Source of the DNA: Psychrilyobacter piezotolerans
Lineage (GTDB): Bacteria; Fusobacteriota; Fusobacteriia; Fusobacteriales; Fusobacteriaceae
DNA: 64,000 nucleotides
Assembly (NCBI RefSeq): GCF_003391055.1
Contig: NZ_QUAJ01000004.1
Location: 1-64,000, forward strand
Reading direction: 5' to 3'
Shown here: positions 12,798 through 43,933 of the stretch, piece after piece
Layout: every line of letters begins with the position of its first letter
How positions within the stretch are numbered: position 1 is the first letter of the stretch
Position numbers and translations under genes: made by a program
Notes under the pieces: model-generated
Seen by the model: the letters and a program-made list of their open reading frames with translations, nothing else
The model's database searches: none
What the model was told of the DNA's origin: nothing

Positions 12798-12834
12798 TTT
12801 TTTATTTAGGTTTTAAACTTTTAATTTTGAAGTT

Positions 12835-13470
12835 TATAGTCGTTGAGCTTCGGCAGTAAATATCTTGCGAGTTTCGTCGTGCCCACCATGCCCGTCAGGA
12901 ACCCTACTAAGAAACGGGGATCACTTGCACTTGCCAGCAAAGACAATTATAAACTTCTTGAACTTTTTCGTTAGTTTTTCTTTCAAGAGAAAAAGTAACC
13001 CGTATCAAAGGCGGAAACTTTGGAATCTAATGGATATACAACTATTAAATATATTTTTAATTTTTAAGTAAACATTGAAAAAAGAAGGTTCTAAGGGTGC
13101 CACCCTTAACTGGCTCTGTTTCTTTTTATCTGAAAATGAAATAGAGGAAAGAAAAGCAGACTTTTTCTAAATGATGTTATAGGGGTAAGTCAGAGGTAAT
13201 GTCCGTCTTCTAATTGCGACAGTCCTCGTTCCACTGCGGAACTTATTCTGTTGGACGACTAAGTAGAATATTTACTGAGAAGCTAGGTAACATCTAGAAA
13301 AAGGATTTTAATCTAAAAAAAATTTATATCAAAGGCGGAACCTTTATTATATTGCTGAATATATATAGTGTGCTATCCATGGGGAAGGTAGAAACAGCCA
13401 TATAAGGCTGAGATAATCTGCCTAAGGACACCCTCTAGTGATAGAGGTAGAAGACTTCAAGTAAATAAAA
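12835..13470. ncRNA. Gene-free GC-rich block, candidate large structured RNA
   Basis: About 640 bases are richer in G and C than neighbouring DNA, lack a credible gene and show many local stems. Examples are the motif TATCAAAGGCGGAA(A/C)CTTT repeated near 13001 and 13327, and ACCTCTAGTGATAGAGGT near 13432. A two-part stem near 13388 has GGTAGA pairing with TCTGCC and CAGCC with GGCTG. This could be a large ornate RNA (for example ROOL- or GOLLD-like, known from phage settings) or a dispersed repeat. I cannot match either, and the strand is unknown. Confidence 0.35.
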
Positions 13471-13590
13471 AGAGCCTCCTATACATTAAAGGGTAGGAGG
13501 CTCGGAGGAATGTACAAGTAAATTTATATTATTTAATAAATTTACTGTGAAGGGTTCTATACATTAATCCCTGGGGGAGACTAGTGTATA
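13471..13590. other. Origin-like hairpin array R
   Basis: Three consecutive hairpins are visible. GAGCCTCCTA pairs with TAGGAGGCTC (13472-13503), and an 11-bp perfect stem AGTAAATTTAT/ATAAATTTACT lies at 13517-13546. An outer TATACA/TGTATA stem (13558-13590) encloses TCCC-TGG-GGGA. The last resembles the CTTGGG-loop hairpins of arrays Q and P. It may be a diverged copy of the same element. Confidence 0.5.
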
Positions 13591-13689
13591 TATATTAACT
13601 AAACCCACTACGGATTAATTTTATCTCAAATATAAATTAAAGTCAACTTAAATTTAGTGGAAATAGCGGATATAATAAGAAGGGAGAGT

Positions 13690-13838
13690 TAAACCTCCTA
13701 AAATAAATCACTGTTGCAATATTTCTATGAATAATAAAAAAGGCTCTTAGATTATTCAAGAGCCTTCTTTATACAATGGATGTAATGACTTCCCTTGGGG
13801 AGGGAGCAGCTTTAGATTAATACTGCAATATTCATTAC
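13690..13838. other. Origin-like hairpin array Q, homologous to prophage array P
   Basis: In order it carries CCTCCTAAAA (13694-13703), TCTATGAATA (13724-13733), an 8-bp hairpin AGGCTCTT/AAGAGCCT (13741-13765), and a GTAATGA/TCATTAC outer stem (13782-13838). The outer stem encloses a hairpin with CTTGGG in its loop. The same blocks occur in the same order at 41493-41633 upstream of the prophage Rep gene. Stem bases differ in compensating ways between copies. No Rep gene follows here, so this is a remnant or satellite copy. Confidence 0.65.
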
Positions 13839-13868
13839 ACATATATTCTATAGTTATTTAGAGAAAAA

Positions 13869-13909
13869 AACAACTTAAATGTTATCAGTTAACAACTTAA
13901 ATGTTATCA
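13869..13909 (+). repeat. Two 19-bp direct repeats, 22-bp period (iteron-like)
   Basis: AACAACTTAAATGTTATCA occurs at 13869-13887 and again at 13891-13909 with no mismatch. One helical-turn-multiple spacing next to the origin-like array Q is what Rep-binding iterons look like. A related TCAACTTAA stands near 13646 and near 41659. Confidence 0.6.
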
Positions 13910-14075: not shown

Positions 14076-14273
14076 TTATTTTTTATGAGCACCAGAACAA
14101 CAATGATCACAACCATTAGCATTTGTATAACCTTTAGATATAGCTGCTTTCACTGCTTTAACAGCAGTTGCATGAGTGCCTAAATTAATTTTATTCGCTG
14201 CAGGCATATTAGGACATTCTGCTTCATGAACTTCTTCTGTCGGACTATCAATGTAGTAAGCATAATGTTTCAT
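14076..14273 (-). CDS. Small Cys/His protein, paralogue of the prophage protein at 43739
   Basis: The 65-residue product ends in KGYTNANGCDHCCSGAH and has an earlier HEAEC. This is the H-x3-C ... C-x2-CC pattern of a small zinc- or metal-binding module. The prophage protein encoded at 43739-43933 shares the GYTNAN-C-x-HCC ending, similar length and the same position relative to hairpin array P. The function is unknown. GGAGGTA precedes the ATG by 6 bases. It probably belongs to the same mobile remnant as arrays Q and R. Confidence 0.65.
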   Translation of the reverse strand: MKHYAYYIDSPTEEVHEAECPNMPAANKINLGTHATAVKAVKAAISKGYTNANGCDHCCSGAHKK

Positions 14274-14321
14274 AATTTTACCTCCTTATTATTTGTCATA
14301 TTAAATAATAACATGAATCGT

Positions 14322-34073: not shown

Positions 34074-34150
34074 TGAAAGAGAAAGTAGGATTGCTTGTAA
34101 GGTAGTTTGGATTTTGAATAAAGCGTAGGAGAAAAGTTTTGGGGGGAGTT

Positions 34151-35401
34151 ATGTTAGATAAAGAACAATTTTTAAAAAAATATCATATTAAAGAAGATCA
34201 ATTTAATCAAATCAATTTACCTTGGGAAGACCTTAATCATATATATATAGATTATGAATCTTCAAAAAATAATATTGAAACCATTTTAGATAATATAGTT
34301 AAAGAATTAAGGCAATGTAAAAATATTCATTCAATAAGAGCTCGTGTTAAAGATTCTGAACACTTAATTGAAAAAATAATAAGAAAAAAGATTCAAACTC
34401 CTGAATGGAGAATAAGTATTGAAAATTATAAAAATGAAATAACTGATATTATAGGCGTAAGAGTAATTTGTTTATTTAAGAAAAATATGCAAGAAATTAA
34501 TAAGTATATACAAAAATTAGAATATGAATCCACTGGTAAAATAGAAGTAAATATAAGAAAAGGCGATGATGAAAGACCTTATAGTAACATTGGAGTAATT
34601 AAGGTTCGTAAAACAGGATATAGGTCTATTCATTATAATTATAAAGTTCAAGATATTAGAGGTAAAAAAATTATTTGTGAAATTCAATTAAGAACTATTT
34701 TTGAAGAAGCATGGGGAGAAATAGACCATACAATAAGATACCCTTATCTACAAGATGACCCGCATCTAAATGATTATTTTAAAGTTTTAAATAGATTATC
34801 TGGACTTGCAGATGAAATGACTAATTTTTCAGAAGATTTGGTAAAACTTATAACAAAGGCTAAAAAGTCAGAAGAAGCTGTAGAGTTAAATGGTGAATTA
34901 AGAAGATTAAAAAAAGAACTAGCAAAAAAAGATGAAAAAATTTCTAAATATGAAAAAGAACTAAAAATGAATAGAGATAGAAAAAGAAAAGTACAGTCTA
35001 TAACTTTAGAACCTTCGGTAGCAACTTTGAGTGCAACAGAACAAATTAGCCTATCACCTTCAAGGTCTGTATTAGAAGATTCCATTACATCTACATTAGG
35101 GCATTCCATATCGGGTTCGGTAGGAGCTTCATTGGCAAATTCGACTAGATCTGCATTAGTAGATTCAGTTAGATCTTCGCTAGGGCATTCCATATCGGGT
35201 TCGGTAGGAGCTTCATTGGCAAATTCGACTAGATCTGCATTAGTAGATTCAGTTAGATCTTCGCTAGGGCATTCCATATCGGGTTCGGTAGGAGCTTCAT
35301 TGGCAAATTCAGTTAAATCTTCGGCAGCTATATGTAGCAAATGTAACACTGTTAATTTTAGACCTAATCATGTTTGCTCTAAATGTGGAAATTTATTATA
35401 G
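34151..35401 (+). CDS. Small alarmone synthetase (RelA/SpoT domain) with repeats and zinc ribbon
   Basis: Residues 40-230 form a RelA/SpoT synthetase domain with the expected signatures: RARVKDSEHLIEKIIRKK, DIIGVRVICLF, TGYRSIHYNYK and EIQLRTIFEEAWGEIDH with its catalytic Glu. No HD hydrolase domain is present. A coiled coil (250-290) follows, then 28-residue Ser/Gly/Ala repeats (84-bp DNA repeats) and a C-terminal four-Cys ribbon (CSKCNTVNF ... CSKCGNLL). Phage-borne synthetases include toxSAS/CapRel-type defence enzymes, but here the tail is unlike those I know. The ATG at 34151 follows GGGGGGAG. Confidence 0.8.
   Translation: MLDKEQFLKKYHIKEDQFNQINLPWEDLNHIYIDYESSKNNIETILDNIVKELRQCKNIHSIRARVKDSEHLIEKIIRKKIQTPEWRISIENYKNEITDIIGVRVICLFKKNMQEINKYIQKLEYESTGKIEVNIRKGDDERPYSNIGVIKVRKTGYRSIHYNYKVQDIRGKKIICEIQLRTIFEEAWGEIDHTIRYPYLQDDPHLNDYFKVLNRLSGLADEMTNFSEDLVKLITKAKKSEEAVELNGELRRLKKELAKKDEKISKYEKELKMNRDRKRKVQSITLEPSVATLSATEQISLSPSRSVLEDSITSTLGHSISGSVGASLANSTRSALVDSVRSSLGHSISGSVGASLANSTRSALVDSVRSSLGHSISGSVGASLANSVKSSAAICSKCNTVNFRPNHVCSKCGNLL
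35098..35330 (+). repeat. 84-bp tandem repeats in the alarmone synthetase gene
   Basis: The unit starting AGGGCATTCCATATCGGG begins at 35098, 35182 and 35266. The first two units are practically identical and the third is partial. Each encodes 28 residues with G-H-S-I-S-G-S-V-G-A-S-L-A-N-S. Near-identity at silent positions shows recent expansion or ongoing slippage. Confidence 0.9.
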
Positions 35402-36678: not shown

Positions 36679-38109
36679 ATGAAAAATAAAATACTGCTAG
36701 ATGTAGATAAAATAGGTTTAGATTTTAGAAATCCAAGATTAGAGGAAAGTCAAAGCGAATTTGAATCGCTAAAATCAATGTTAAAAAATCAAAAAGATAA
36801 AATATATCCTTTAGCTTTGGATATCTTGGAAAGAGGATTAAATCCCTCTGAAAATATTATAACAACAAAAAAAAATGGAAAATATATAGTTCTAGAAGGA
36901 AATAGAAGAATCACATCTTTAAAACTCTTAAAAAATCCTAAACTTATAGAAAATATAGATATAAATTTATTCAAAAGATTTACTCGTCTTCATAAAAAAT
37001 TTATGGAAAATCCAATAGAAAAAATAGAGTGTATTAATTTTGAAAATGAAAAAGATGCTTTATATTGGATAGATTTAAAACATACAGGAGAAAATAAAGG
37101 AAAAGGTGTTGTTTCTTGGACAACCCAACAGCAACAGTTATTTCAAGGAAGATATAAAAATGAAACATCAAAAGAAATTAATGTCCTAAAATTACTTGAA
37201 AAATATGGAACTTTTAATGAAAGTTATAAAAATAAATTAGGAAATATCCCCTTAACAAATTTAAATAGACTATTATCTGACCCTGATATCAGAGAAGTTA
37301 TAGGTATTAATTTTAAAAATAATAATCTTTTTTTAAAAGAAGATAAGAAAATTGAAAAGACAATAGAATATCTTGAAGAAATTGGAAAAGATTTAATGGA
37401 TAAAAAAATTAAGGTCGGAGATATTTATACAAAAGAAAAAAGGGTTGATTATATTTCAAAAGTAAGTAGCAGAATTAAAGAAAAAGATAGTAGTGGAGAA
37501 AATAGGCAATCAGTTCAAAACCCTTTGGTTAAGAATAATCAAATCATTTTGGATGAAAATGAAAAAAAAGCAATAGAATTAAATGATTCAAATAAGAAAG
37601 TCCCTCCAGTAGAGAATAATTTAGAGATTTTTTCTAAAAAAACTAAGTCATATCCAACAACAAAAGCAAGAAAATATTTAATGCCTATAACTTTTAGATT
37701 GAAAATAGAGTCACAACGAATAAATAATATTTTTAGAGAATTAAAAACAATAGAGATAGATAAATATCCAAATAGCGTAGGAATTTTATTCAGAGTTTTT
37801 TTAGAATTGACTTTAGACTGGATAATTGACAAAAAAAAATTAACGGGGCACAGTGATATAAAATTAGTTAAAAAATTAGAAGTTGTAAGAAATTATATGA
37901 GAGAAAATAAGTTGATGGATAGAGAAGAACTGAAAATAATTAATACAGTAATTTCAACAAAAGACCATCTTTTTTCAATTACTACATTAAACAATTATAT
38001 TCATAATAAAAGTCATTCTCCAACTTCTAATGATTTAAAAACACATTGGGATAATTTTGAGATATTTATAGAAAAAATTTGGGATGCAGTAGAGGAGAAA
38101 AGTCAATGA
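36679..38109 (+). CDS. ParB/sulfiredoxin-fold protein of a three-gene cassette
   Basis: The 476-residue protein starts with a ParB-like N-domain (MKNKILLDVDKIGLDFRNPR, GLNPSENIIT, then VLEGNRRITSLKLL, the E-G-N-R-R box of ParB/DndB-type nucleases or NTPases). A middle region has WTTQQQQLFQGRY, and a C-terminal helical domain (about 330-470) resembles an adaptor. It overlaps the next gene by 4 bases (ATGA), and the methylase gene follows that. The cassette recalls anti-phage modules; activity is unproven. Confidence 0.65.
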   Translation: MKNKILLDVDKIGLDFRNPRLEESQSEFESLKSMLKNQKDKIYPLALDILERGLNPSENIITTKKNGKYIVLEGNRRITSLKLLKNPKLIENIDINLFKRFTRLHKKFMENPIEKIECINFENEKDALYWIDLKHTGENKGKGVVSWTTQQQQLFQGRYKNETSKEINVLKLLEKYGTFNESYKNKLGNIPLTNLNRLLSDPDIREVIGINFKNNNLFLKEDKKIEKTIEYLEEIGKDLMDKKIKVGDIYTKEKRVDYISKVSSRIKEKDSSGENRQSVQNPLVKNNQIILDENEKKAIELNDSNKKVPPVENNLEIFSKKTKSYPTTKARKYLMPITFRLKIESQRINNIFRELKTIEIDKYPNSVGILFRVFLELTLDWIIDKKKLTGHSDIKLVKKLEVVRNYMRENKLMDREELKIINTVISTKDHLFSITTLNNYIHNKSHSPTSNDLKTHWDNFEIFIEKIWDAVEEKSQ

Positions 38110-39722
38110 TTGAAAAGATTATGATAAAAAAATTTAGAGCATTAAAAAATTTAGAAATAGGATTAGGAGAAAATTTGACAGCTATTGCTGGGCAAAATGG
38201 AACGGCTAAAAGTACAATTTTAGGAATGATTGCACAGCCATTTGAAATAACTGGAAAAAAAGAAAAAGATTATTTAACTGAAGAAGATTTAAAAAAATCT
38301 TTAATAACTTCTAAAAGTTTTAATACTAAATTTAAAGATATTTTCAAATTAAGTCCTGTTCATGATTCTCATGGTGAAAGTAGGGGTAAAGAGGACCACT
38401 ATCATTATGAACTTTACTTTAATAAAGAGGATGAAATAATTTATGAAAATCCATTACAGGTAAAAGGGAATCCAAGAGACGTACCTCCTTATCTTAGGTT
38501 AGTAGCAGGGAAAACAAGAGATGCTGGTCATGGAAATATACCATATCCAGTAATTTACTTAGGATTAAGTAGAATATATCCTATAGGAGAAAGTCAAAAA
38601 TTAGAGAACAAGGATGATAATTTAACTACAGAAGAAGAAGAATTTTACAAAGAAAAGTACAAAAATATATTACTTTTAACCGATGAAAATTTAGAAAAAA
38701 CAGAAATGGTAGAAAAGGAAAAAGTGACTACTTTAGCAGTTAGTACAACAACCTATGATTGGAGAAGTATATCAGCGGGACAAGATAATATAGGGAAAAT
38801 AATTGCTAGTATTTTAGAGTTTAAAAGATTAAGTGAAAAATCAAATTATAAGGGTGGAATATTACTTATTGATGAAATAGAAAGCACTCTTTATCCTAGA
38901 GCCCAAGAAAAATTAATAGAATTTTTAAATCAACAGGCATCTAAATTAAATTTACAAGTCATTTTCACAACTCATTCTTTAGAAATATTGGAAAGAATGA
39001 TTATAGATAAAAAATATTCAAATAGTAAGGTCAATTTTTTAACTAAAAAATATGGACCATTAGTTGTAGAAAAAACTAACTCCATAGAAGAACTAAGAAA
39101 TAATTTATTGGTTTTACCTACAGGATCTGAAAAAAAAATTCCTAAAATTAACGTATATTTTGAAGATCAAGAAGCTGAAGAAATGCTAAAAAATATTATA
39201 AAAACAAAAAGTATCCTACAGTATTGTAATTTTTTAGTTTTGGAATTAGGTGCACCTCAAATTTCAGCTATTGCAACAAAAATTAATGAACTAAAAAATG
39301 GTATAATTGTTTTTGATGGTGATTGTAAAATATCAAAGGAAAAAGGAACAATTAAAAAAAACATGAAAAAACATAATTTTTATTTATATTTAATAGGGGA
39401 TAAAAGTCCAGAAAATATGTATCTAGATTATTTAGACAGTTGTAGTTCTTCACATGATATTTGGAAGAAGACTTTACGATCATATGGACGCCAAAACTAT
39501 CTAGATAATGCTCCTTTAAAAACAAAGAGAAATAGAGAAAATGTAAAAAAATGGTATAAAGAAGATAAAAAATATTTTGGTACAGATATGAATAGGCTAT
39601 ATAAAACAATATTAAACGAGGATAAAAACTTAGTAGAAGAAGAAGAGAGATTTAAGAAAGATTTTGTAGATAAATTAAAAAAATGTTATAATGAGACATA
39701 TGGAATGATATTTTTAAAATAA
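38106..39722 (+). CDS. OLD-like AAA ATPase with probable TOPRIM nuclease domain
   Basis: The 538-residue protein has Walker A AGQNGTAKST (near residue 31), an ABC-type signature region RSISAGQDNIGK, Walker B ILLIDEIESTLYP and an H-loop TTHSLEIL. A C-terminal domain (about 345-450) reads NVYFEDQEAEEML with an early Glu and GIIVFDGDCK with a D-x-D, which fits a TOPRIM fold. ATPase-TOPRIM proteins of the OLD/AriAB type are phage-defence effectors. The ATG at 38106 overlaps the upstream stop; an in-frame start 27 bases earlier is less likely. Confidence 0.7.
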   Translation: MIEKIMIKKFRALKNLEIGLGENLTAIAGQNGTAKSTILGMIAQPFEITGKKEKDYLTEEDLKKSLITSKSFNTKFKDIFKLSPVHDSHGESRGKEDHYHYELYFNKEDEIIYENPLQVKGNPRDVPPYLRLVAGKTRDAGHGNIPYPVIYLGLSRIYPIGESQKLENKDDNLTTEEEEFYKEKYKNILLLTDENLEKTEMVEKEKVTTLAVSTTTYDWRSISAGQDNIGKIIASILEFKRLSEKSNYKGGILLIDEIESTLYPRAQEKLIEFLNQQASKLNLQVIFTTHSLEILERMIIDKKYSNSKVNFLTKKYGPLVVEKTNSIEELRNNLLVLPTGSEKKIPKINVYFEDQEAEEMLKNIIKTKSILQYCNFLVLELGAPQISAIATKINELKNGIIVFDGDCKISKEKGTIKKNMKKHNFYLYLIGDKSPENMYLDYLDSCSSSHDIWKKTLRSYGRQNYLDNAPLKTKRNRENVKKWYKEDKKYFGTDMNRLYKTILNEDKNLVEEEERFKKDFVDKLKKCYNETYGMIFLK

Positions 39723-39735
39723 GGAGTGGTGAAGT

Positions 39736-40584
39736 ATGTCGTTTGCATCTCCGCTTAGATACCCTGGTGGTAAAACTAAAGTTTATGATAATTTAATATC
39801 TTTATTTAAAGAAAATACTATAGAAAAACCTACTTATATTGAACCATATGCTGGAGGAGCAGGATTAGCATTAAAGCTTCTTTTAAAGGGTGATGTATCA
39901 AAAATTATATTGAATGATTACGATATAGCGGTATATGCATTTTGGTATTCTATATTAAATTATACAGATGAATTTTGTGAATTAATAAAAAATACACCTA
40001 TAAATTTAAAAGAATGGGAAAATCAAAAAAAAATACAATCAAATGAAAATGTTTCTTTATTAACATTGGGATTTTCTACATTTTTTTTAAATAGAACTAA
40101 TCGATCTGGTATTTTGAAAGGTGGGCCTATAGGTGGAAAAGAACAAAATAGTAATTACCTTATTGATTGTAGGTTTAATAAAGAAGGTCTTATAAAAAGG
40201 ATAAAAAATGTAGCAGAATATAAAGATTTTATTGAAATTCATAATTTAGATGCTATTGTTTTTATAAATAAAATTATAATCCCTAAAAAAGAAAAAACAT
40301 TTACTTTTTTCGATCCACCATATTATAAAAAAGGTCCTGGACTATATGAAAATCATTATTTACATGATGACCATGAAAAAGTAGCTAAAACTATAGGGAA
40401 ATTAAAAGATCATAATTGGATAATCACCTATGATAATGTAAACGAAATAAAAGAAATCTATAAAAAATTTCATGTAGAAGAATATGGAATTACGTATAGT
40501 GCAGCTATAAAGATAAAAGCAAAAGAAGTTGTTATTTTTAGTGACAATTTAAAAAATAAAAAATTTGAAAAAAAAAGAGTATAA
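39736..40584 (+). CDS. D12-class DNA adenine methyltransferase
   Basis: The 282-residue enzyme has the D12/Dam-type layout: N-terminal LRYPGGKTKVYDNL, AdoMet motif I TYIEPYAGGAGLAL, and motif IV TFFDPPYYKKG with the catalytic DPPY. It should place N6-methyladenine at a short site. It starts 13 bases after the ATPase gene, so methylation could mark self DNA for the ParB-like/OLD-like pair. Equally it could be an independent phage anti-restriction methylase. GGAGTGGTG precedes the ATG. Confidence 0.85.
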   Translation: MSFASPLRYPGGKTKVYDNLISLFKENTIEKPTYIEPYAGGAGLALKLLLKGDVSKIILNDYDIAVYAFWYSILNYTDEFCELIKNTPINLKEWENQKKIQSNENVSLLTLGFSTFFLNRTNRSGILKGGPIGGKEQNSNYLIDCRFNKEGLIKRIKNVAEYKDFIEIHNLDAIVFINKIIIPKKEKTFTFFDPPYYKKGPGLYENHYLHDDHEKVAKTIGKLKDHNWIITYDNVNEIKEIYKKFHVEEYGITYSAAIKIKAKEVVIFSDNLKNKKFEKKRV

Positions 40585-41116: not shown

Positions 41117-41365
41117 ATGAATTGGAAGAAGCAAAAAAAAATAAGATTATGTGAAATGCAAGCCCTGGAAGAAAAAAGAAAGGATCTTGCCAAAGTAGGG
41201 TGGTTAGCTATGAACAAAAAAGAAAAAGAGCAGCTGAGAAAATTGATAAATTTTAGCTGGGATAAAATACCAGGCTATGCCAAAGCTAAAATATCAAAAG
41301 ATGACTATATCAAATTTGAGACTCAGGAACATTGTGTAAAATTTGCCGAAAAATTAAAGAAATAA
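41117..41365 (+). CDS. Hypothetical 82-residue basic protein before Rep
   Basis: The product is charged and helical (LEEKRKDLAKVGWLAMNKKE) with a C-terminal half KISKDDYIKFETQEHCVKF. GGGGGGAAC precedes the ATG. It precedes the origin-like array and Rep and may be a replication accessory factor. No family is recognised. Confidence 0.55.
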   Translation: MNWKKQKKIRLCEMQALEEKRKDLAKVGWLAMNKKEKEQLRKLINFSWDKIPGYAKAKISKDDYIKFETQEHCVKFAEKLKK

Positions 41366-41701
41366 TTTTTCTATCTTGAACCAAACCAAAAAATTGAGCT
41401 GGTCTAAACGTCATAAAGGCAATATCAGCTTCTTGGTTTAGTTGAATGTAGAAATTAATATGTGTATTTTTAAAGATATTACATTAGGTGGACCTCCTAA
41501 AACAAATCACCAATGTAATATCTCTATGAATATATAAAGGCACCTAAAATTTAATTTAGGTGCCTGCTATACAAATAGTAACGAATTCTCTTGGGAGAGA
41601 GAATGGCATTTGGTTAAATACAATATTCGTTACATAAACATTCTACTATTATTTACTAACTTAGTCAACTTAAGAAACGATAAAATTTTAAAGGAGGGGA
41701 T
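41366..41701. other. Structured non-coding region upstream of Rep
   Basis: This 336-base gap has no gene. Its left part can form a long imperfect stem (GAACCAAACC with TTGGTTTAG, 41374-41447) and its right part is hairpin array P (41475-41633). A TCAACTTAA motif near 41659 recalls the iteron-like repeats at 13869. The whole fits a replication origin or regulatory RNA for the adjacent Rep gene. Confidence 0.6.
41475..41633. other. Origin-like hairpin array P
   Basis: In order: GATATTACATT/AATGTAATATC (11 bp, 41475-41522) around CCTCCTAAAA; TCTATGAATA; a 10-bp hairpin GGCACCTAAA/TTTAGGTGCC; then GTAACGAAT/ATTCGTTAC (9 bp, 41578-41633) enclosing TCTC-TTGG-GAGA. The same order and compensating stem changes occur in array Q at 13690. 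A CTTGGG loop sequence next to a rolling-circle-type Rep suggests a double-strand origin with its nick site. Confidence 0.65.
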
Positions 41702-42730
41702 ATGATAGGGCTGGACAGAGATAAGTTAGAGAGGGTAGGAATAGATAAGTTAGTCCTCTCTGGAATAAAAATAGAAACAGATAAAAAATCATTGTTTACT
41801 GAAGGTCAGGGATGGGTTGAGGAAAAATTTGAGATCAAAGAAGAACTCTTCAGTATAGAAAAAACTATTAAGTTGTATGAAAGTGGAGAAGTAAGGGAAA
41901 CCACATATTTGAGGTTTAATCCTAACAGACTCCTGCATGGTCACAATATATACAATGCAAGAAATTTTGAACTAAAAGAATCGATCAATAGATTAATGAG
42001 TTTATTAGACAGCAAAAATATATCCATAGATCTTTCTGAAGCTAAGATCAGTGAAATCGAGATAAATATAAACCTGGATCTGATATTTGAAGAATATAAG
42101 GAGGTATTTACTCTATTATTCCTCAAGCTGCCTAAACTAAGAAAGATAGGCAATATCAATTTAAACGAATCATATAAAAAACTATTTGCAGATTCTACCC
42201 TGGATGGAGGATGGAAGAGCCATAAAGTCAGAATTTACGACAAACAAAGAGAAGTGGATGATAAACATCTTTTAGGTTTTGATTTGACCAGACTGGAGTG
42301 GTGGCTATCCAGTTCAACATATAAATACTATGCCAGTGAAAGATTTAATATTGATAATACACTAGAAGCACTATTAGGAGACCACAATATCTTAGATAAG
42401 ATATTTATAGAGTTATGTTATGAAAAACTATTTAAAGAAGCATATAGATACCTGGAGAAAGAACTAGAACCAAATTTGGAACTGAGCTATTTAGAATTTA
42501 AAAAACAGAATAAATTAGCCAGGGCTACCGGTAGATCTTCTCAAAGAAATGTATATAAATATCTGGAAGATAACTCCTGGATCTTTGATTATTCCAATTT
42601 AGAAAATATTATATCAATTCACGATAAGCCACATAAGACCAGGGAAATAGAAAGGATAAAAAAGAACTATTCTCATTTAAATAACAAGGAAAAATTAAGT
42701 TATTTAGTGGGAAAAATTTTTAACCACTAA
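41702..42730 (+). CDS. Rep protein of the filamentous-phage gpII/X (CRI) family
   Basis: The 342-residue protein shows the gpII/X-type pattern: FNPNRLLHGHNIYN in the N-terminal third, EIEININLD in the middle, then KVRIYDKQREVDDK and LTRLEWWLSS, and a basic C-terminus. These initiators nick the double-strand origin and start rolling-circle replication of inoviruses and some plasmids. Finding one in a tailed prophage, behind array P, is unusual. GGAGGGGAT precedes the ATG. Confidence 0.7.
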   Translation: MIGLDRDKLERVGIDKLVLSGIKIETDKKSLFTEGQGWVEEKFEIKEELFSIEKTIKLYESGEVRETTYLRFNPNRLLHGHNIYNARNFELKESINRLMSLLDSKNISIDLSEAKISEIEININLDLIFEEYKEVFTLLFLKLPKLRKIGNINLNESYKKLFADSTLDGGWKSHKVRIYDKQREVDDKHLLGFDLTRLEWWLSSSTYKYYASERFNIDNTLEALLGDHNILDKIFIELCYEKLFKEAYRYLEKELEPNLELSYLEFKKQNKLARATGRSSQRNVYKYLEDNSWIFDYSNLENIISIHDKPHKTREIERIKKNYSHLNNKEKLSYLVGKIFNH

Positions 42731-43738: not shown

Positions 43739-43933
43739 TTATTTTATATGAGTACTAGGACAGCAATGAGAACAAGCATTAGCATTTGTGTAGCCTTTAA
43801 GTTTTGCGTCGGCTACTGCATCCTTGCAGCTATCAAAACGACCTAGAAAACCTTTGTCTTGGTTTTTCTGAGGGATATATCGACACCCCAGTACATGAAC
43901 TTGACTTGTCTTGAGATCAATACAATAAAGCAT
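43739..43933 (-). CDS. Small Cys/His protein (prophage copy)
   Basis: The 64-residue product ends KGYTNANACSHCCPSTH and carries VHVLGCRY earlier, giving a likely metal site. It is the only minus-strand gene in the late half of the element, an insertion-like moron between packaging genes. The chromosomal protein at 14076 is its paralogue. GGAGGTA precedes the ATG. Confidence 0.65.
   Translation of the reverse strand: MLYCIDLKTSQVHVLGCRYIPQKNQDKGFLGRFDSCKDAVADAKLKGYTNANACSHCCPSTHIK

Follow-up and report, generated by a model that had tools for sequence, protein, structure and literature searches.

The window analysed here, a 64,000-nt stretch of Psychrilyobacter piezotolerans DNA, contains three hairpin arrays (P, Q and R) that appear to encode RNAs. 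Array P reads as two things, a hairpin (hp1, 41463-41537) and a putative minus-strand small-RNA gene (41529-41668). It is rather probable that a small-RNA gene, opposite to the rep strand, lies within P and within Q and makes up the whole of R, and that its product acts as a countertranscript repressing rep. Inside a prophage, array P is preceded by an 82-aa ORF and followed by a Rep-like gene of 342 aa, so that the preliminary description, which was based on the sequence and placed the array upstream of a Rep-like gene, is borne out on this point, and the blocks it named are present at the positions it gave. The phage is a temperate tailed phage, with a CI-like repressor (32627), small (44074) and large (44556) terminase subunits and a lambda-type portal (46586). 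The features of the two regions are:

41117-41365, plus strand: 82-aa ORF, preceding hp1 in most prophages compared.
41368-41454, strand not assigned: forked hairpin 5' of hp1, GAGCTGGTYTAAWCGTC..GGCAATATCAGCT.
41463-41537, plus strand: hp1, a 75-nt hairpin with loop GGACCTCCTAAAACAAAT and an anti-Shine-Dalgarno ACCTCCT at 41492-41498; covariance model match.
41529-41634, minus strand: predicted small RNA P, about 106 nt, with a three-way junction, a C-rich loop CUCCCA and a terminator.
41538-41565, minus strand: putative Rho-independent terminator of small RNA P, the GGCACCT/AGGTGCC hairpin of the preliminary description.
41578-41633, minus strand: three-way junction core, outer stem GTAACGAAT/ATTCGTTAC with the CTTGGG hairpin described earlier.
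41640-41645, minus strand: putative -10 box TAGAAT of small RNA P, 17 nt from the -35 box.
41663-41668, minus strand: putative -35 box TTGACT of small RNA P; TTAAGTTGACT is common to P- and R-type units.
41702-42730, plus strand: Rep-like gene, 342 aa, putatively of the distant gene II/X family; Shine-Dalgarno AGGAGG at 41692-41697.
13463-13612, minus strand: predicted small RNA R, about 150 nt, with three hairpins and a terminator at 13472-13503.
13618-13623 and 13641-13646, minus strand: putative promoter of small RNA R, TAAAAT and TTGACT.
13690-13733, plus strand: hp1 relic at Q, right half and loop only.
13732-13839, minus strand: predicted small RNA Q, the P homologue in a prophage relic; terminator at 13740-13766.
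13845-13850 and 13868-13873, minus strand: putative promoter of small RNA Q, -10 TAGAAT and a weak -35 TTGTTT.
14076-14274, minus strand: 65-aa gene, phrog_4298, intact downstream of Q; homologue of the prophage gene at 43739-43933.

The predicted small-RNA genes share a common layout. The sequence AGTCAACTTAA, conserved past each junction, is the -35 box on the opposite strand, with TAGAAT or TAAAAT 17 nt on; the predicted RNA starts with the outer stem, and its last hairpin is followed by a T-run, both in the minus-strand sense. With their promoters, the genes extend over 41529-41668 (P), 13732-13873 (Q) and 13463-13646 (R), promoters and terminators being recognised by sequence match only. 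TTGACT-N17-TA(G/A)AAT or a close match occurs in P, L086, L063, L064, L068 (two units), L074, L177 and six R units, and weaker -35 boxes are found in Q, L065a, L065b, L066, L070, L072 and L176. A unit of promoter plus terminator is present on the minus strand only, both in the P leader (1 of 2000 shuffles) and in the Q/R region (2 of 2000); the terminator search in P found one against a shuffle mean of 0.2. The minus strand gives the more stable fold in 13 of 14 P/Q-type units and five of six R units, and the small RNA P region folds on this strand at -36.6 kcal/mol. Where the outer stem departs from Watson-Crick pairing, the plus strand shows A.C six times and no G.T, which corresponds to G.U on the minus strand (6 versus 0). 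In the predicted minus-strand folds the C-rich motif is unpaired, in loops CUCCCA, CCCCA or ACCCA. The P unit does not overlap the rep Shine-Dalgarno.

Array P folds at -52.3 kcal/mol (z -7.1), a value reached by none of 200 shuffles, and Q at -47.5 kcal/mol (z -3.5). The earlier proposal that compensating changes between P and Q place the fold under selection is supported by homologues of the genus, which extend the P/Q pair to an alignment of 13-14 sequences: covariation then exceeds that of shuffles for hp1 and the junction, and it does so for the R units as well. The outer stem of the three-way junction is kept in 14 of 14 sequences when read on the minus strand, and its covariation score is equalled by 2 of 500 shuffles; in the R unit, 93.9% of cells are paired over 41 pairs, 13 of them with two-sided changes, and 0 of 500 shuffles reach the score. 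Because the copies of the units are homologous, all such counts and statistics measure the strength of a pattern and are not independent trials. Some of the architecture first described needs qualification. The common order and blocks of P and Q hold for the second module, which is homologous, while the first hairpin is shared in its right part only, Q being without the left arm; R, described as of similar architecture, is the same kind of unit but a separate one and not a degenerate copy of P. Against Rfam 15, with both strands searched and lax thresholds included, no family reached its gathering score and matches were at chance level. If transcribed, the units would represent RNA families without an Rfam entry. 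Integron attC sites were considered and rejected, as the outer-stem ends misfit RYYYAAC/GTTRRRY (by eye).

The hairpin hp1 probably acts as an RNA of the rep-sense strand. In its alignment, 97.7% of the cells of 23 pairs are paired, six pairs show two-sided changes and 0 of 500 shuffles reach the covariation score. On the plus (rep-sense) strand, its consensus pairs are G.U 39 times and A.C four times, two columns supplying most of these. The strand assignment is weakened because the reverse complement is equally or slightly more stable by MFE in 10 of 14 sequences, and a search for a plus-strand promoter near hp1 found none. Since any Shine-Dalgarno pairs with an ACCTCCT-type loop, the diverged loci L075 and L178 are the informative cases: in both, the hp1 loop of the locus is the best for its own Shine-Dalgarno (-22.7 versus -15.4 with other loops in L075, and -16.9 versus about -12 in L178). 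With moderate confidence, hp1 is predicted to be a probable translational lock, in which the ACCUCCU loop of the rep-sense RNA would cover the rep Shine-Dalgarno and so add to control by the small RNA. A small coding ORF on the minus strand of hp1 (a Shine-Dalgarno followed by ATG in P) was rejected, its start not being conserved in homologues.

The Rep-like protein appears to be only distantly related to gene II/X proteins. It matches the phrog_702 replication protein (E 3.8e-6), six of 17 relatives match Phage_CRI (best 9e-5), and Y179, K181, R197 and E199 are invariant in the 17. The AlphaFold model (pLDDT 86) has no match under E 0.001 in a PDB fold search and weak matches among viral structures, including an Inoviridae Rep (E 5e-5, TM 0.26). 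Rolling-circle activity, implied by the type first assigned to this protein, is plausible at most: the match to TIGR01629 (E 0.0034, 16.4 bits) is below the cut-off of 29, and the second H of the HxH motif, N or D in several relatives, is not conserved.

Comparison of 16 loci defined the modules. hp1 occurs in nearly all such prophages of the genus (not in L114). The gene 3' of it is rep, a cluster 22 Rep-like replacement gene (for which Fusobacterium phage Funu1 has a 42% homologue), a ParB-methylase gene or, in L178, a gene of 120 aa. Hairpin 2 and the three-way junction together form the second module, which is present in P, L063, L064, L066, L068 and L086. Prophages L067, L069, L071 and L085 do without the P-type unit, which is therefore not essential for phage life; in L067, L069 and L204, which carry hp1 only, Rep is 86-93% identical. 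R occurs at six loci (L063, L084 and four more, including that of the window) and only directly upstream of hp1. Intact prophage copies are always antisense in the leader between the 82-aa ORF and the Rep-like gene, and the others lie in relics without rep. The forked hairpin at 41368-41454 recurs in L067, L114, L120 and three viral contigs, where it stands directly 5' of rep or methylase-rep; one occurrence belongs to a phage of another genus.

A covariance-model search for homologues beside Rep genes had been proposed in the preliminary description, and further copies do adjoin rep in related prophages, all of one genus. Models R1, R2 and R3, run over 61 genomes of the family, recovered the elements in the window's own genus and in no other of 14 genera, and BLASTN matches beyond the genus were short and at chance level. 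Other Rep relatives have different upstream hairpins, and beside Rep outside the genus no P-type minus-strand promoter was found. Phage records searched with P DNA and with Rep yielded nothing, a pattern scan of genome contigs gave three unrelated matches, and an IMG/VR scan with the Q-type loop matched 13 contigs. Among the Rep relatives, L095, L098, L103, L104, L108 and L112 have a short hairpin and then an GGTTCGGGAAAGGGGTTGGC-like sequence immediately 5' of rep, a candidate origin or regulatory site.

In the mechanism proposed, minus-strand RNAs of about 105-150 nt, each with a sigma-70-type promoter, a C-rich loop and a Rho-independent terminator, would be countertranscripts of the leader joining the 82-aa ORF to the Rep-like gene. 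Pairing with the leader would lower Rep expression; the prophage would then stay silent and incoming relatives would be repressed. Such an arrangement is known from pMV158, where RNAII is encoded on the opposite strand of the copG-repB intergenic region and inhibits repB translation (PMC4485353). Like RNAII, the predicted RNAs lie on the opposite strand between a small upstream gene and rep, have their own promoter, are structured and are complementary to the leader throughout (PMC4485353). The 82-aa ORF may be seen as the positional counterpart of copG. In contrast to RNAII, a single hairpin of 48 nt, the RNAs predicted here are 105-150 nt long and would fold into a three-way junction or three hairpins; as many as two types stand in tandem, and the phage that carries them is tailed and temperate. 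Phage antisense RNAs involved in immunity or exclusion include the c4 RNA of P1/P7 and the sas RNA of P22 (PMC12197685). The likeness is that of a phage-encoded antisense RNA, here a predicted one, regulating phage genes; compared by description, the present units differ in their predicted target, a replication gene, and in the persistence of copies in relics. If the units are transcribed, plasmid-style countertranscript control would be placed in a temperate tailed phage.

Alternatively, the minus-strand small RNAs may mainly act in trans, binding Shine-Dalgarno sequences of other mRNAs from phage or host, the position in the rep leader being incidental; this we consider rather doubtful. The CUCCCA/CCCCA loops recall RsaE and LhrC, small RNAs of low-GC bacteria that bind Shine-Dalgarno sequences with UCCC loops (PMC4132741). 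As in these, a C-rich loop could bind a Shine-Dalgarno and the units are multicopy, but RsaE and LhrC act in trans on host mRNAs, whereas the units here are encoded antisense to a phage leader. The retention of small-RNA units in relics without rep fits trans action, as does a possible target in two small prophage genes (L085, ~581; L069, ~7198), whose ribosome-binding site, CCTTGGGGAGGG(A/T)G, complements the Q-type loop almost perfectly. However, sites of this type occur in only two places in eight genomes of the genus and not in the window's own, and an energy-based scan of 62 ribosome-binding sites in the window revealed no outstanding target for the C-rich loops. Nor does rep stand out as a partner of the C-rich loop, ranking 13-19 among these sites; the best match of R was the 82-aa ORF. 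That intact copies always occupy the same rep leader also argues against an incidental position. Cis-antisense control of rep is preferred over trans action because of the pMV158-like anatomy.

The origin region of filamentous phages adjoins gene II and has a cluster of hairpins. The array, a hairpin cluster 5' of a distant gene II/X-type Rep, was first described as a likely double-strand origin or regulatory RNA. The regulatory RNA has proved the better half of this proposal; that the array serves the phage as a rolling-circle double-strand origin (or single-strand origin), with nicking or priming at the hairpin folds, now appears quite improbable. Its fixed orientation and its modules, optional and swapped as those of single-strand origins are, would suit such a role, but the unit is missing beside Reps 86-93% identical (L067, L069 and L204, assuming functional phages) and is therefore not an obligatory origin, and hp1 also precedes a methylase gene in place of rep. 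The CTTG loop proposed as the nick site is not kept in L068 (CCTGGG), L074 (CTTAGG), L176 or the R units (CCTGGGG). Unlike a filamentous-phage origin, the optional modules carry a putative promoter and terminator, show no conserved nick site and belong to a tailed phage; the minus-strand promoter and terminator are unexplained by an origin and, with the G.U strand bias, indicate RNA. Non-autonomous mobile repeats (MITE-like) gathering near rep are more improbable still: there are several copies per genome, tandem copies (R plus Q, two in L068) and solitary ones, but the solitary copies lie in prophage relics with fragments of orf82, rep or tail genes, two sites are orthologous across species, R occurs only beside hp1, and no target duplication was seen.

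Units not beside an intact rep are Q, L065b, L070, L072, L073, L074, L176, L177 and L179. Several of these adjoin fragments of orf82, the rep start or tail genes, often together with an intact phrog_4298-family gene. Orthologous relics in different species form two pairs. For L074/L177, 112 of 116 positions are identical in the junction unit versus 109 of 151 just downstream (Fisher p 5e-8); identities are 97% for the junction unit, 94% for R, 93% for the downstream gene and 72-75% for the flanks (gaps counted), and hp1 is largely deleted in one member. Conservation of the junction unit does not differ significantly from that of the downstream gene (p 0.17). In L065b/L072, the unit is identical at 138 of 154 positions versus 102 of 154 for the rep relic (Fisher p 1e-6), with identities of 90% for the unit, 66% for the rep relic and 92% for a neighbouring gene. 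In these relics, where hp1 or rep has decayed, the RNA units have held up no worse than genes, which hints that they may have a function without rep. A bolder and unlikely extension is that relics retain the RNA genes after the loss of rep because their RNAs act in trans to silence rep in related phages that enter the cell, with different specificities provided by the several RNA types of a genome. If true, dead prophages would leave RNA-based immunity behind. If the units are transcribed, their survival would offer a clear, cheap test of protection by relic RNA alone.

Other elements lie near the arrays. The phrog_4298 family (14076-14274 and 43739-43933) comprises minus-strand genes of 64-73 aa with their own Shine-Dalgarno, which are present many times over in prophages and relics. 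Immediately 5' of R, a non-coding element of about 500 bp (12817-13345) holds TATCAAAGGCGGAA(A/C)C twice; the genome carries partial copies with 86-96% identity on its contigs C14, C16, C30, C34 and C35, and pieces also occur in further genera of the family. A prophage gene at 34139-35401 encodes a domain of RelA/SpoT type (Pfam E 7e-19) and also matches PDC-S33 weakly. The region 36679-40584 is probably an anti-phage defence system carried by the prophage: 5' of the 82-aa ORF lie the PD-Lambda-5 A protein (36679-38109, E 9e-133) and the PD-Lambda-5 B D12 methyltransferase (39736-40584, E 2e-118), with an AAA ATPase gene (38079-39722) between them.
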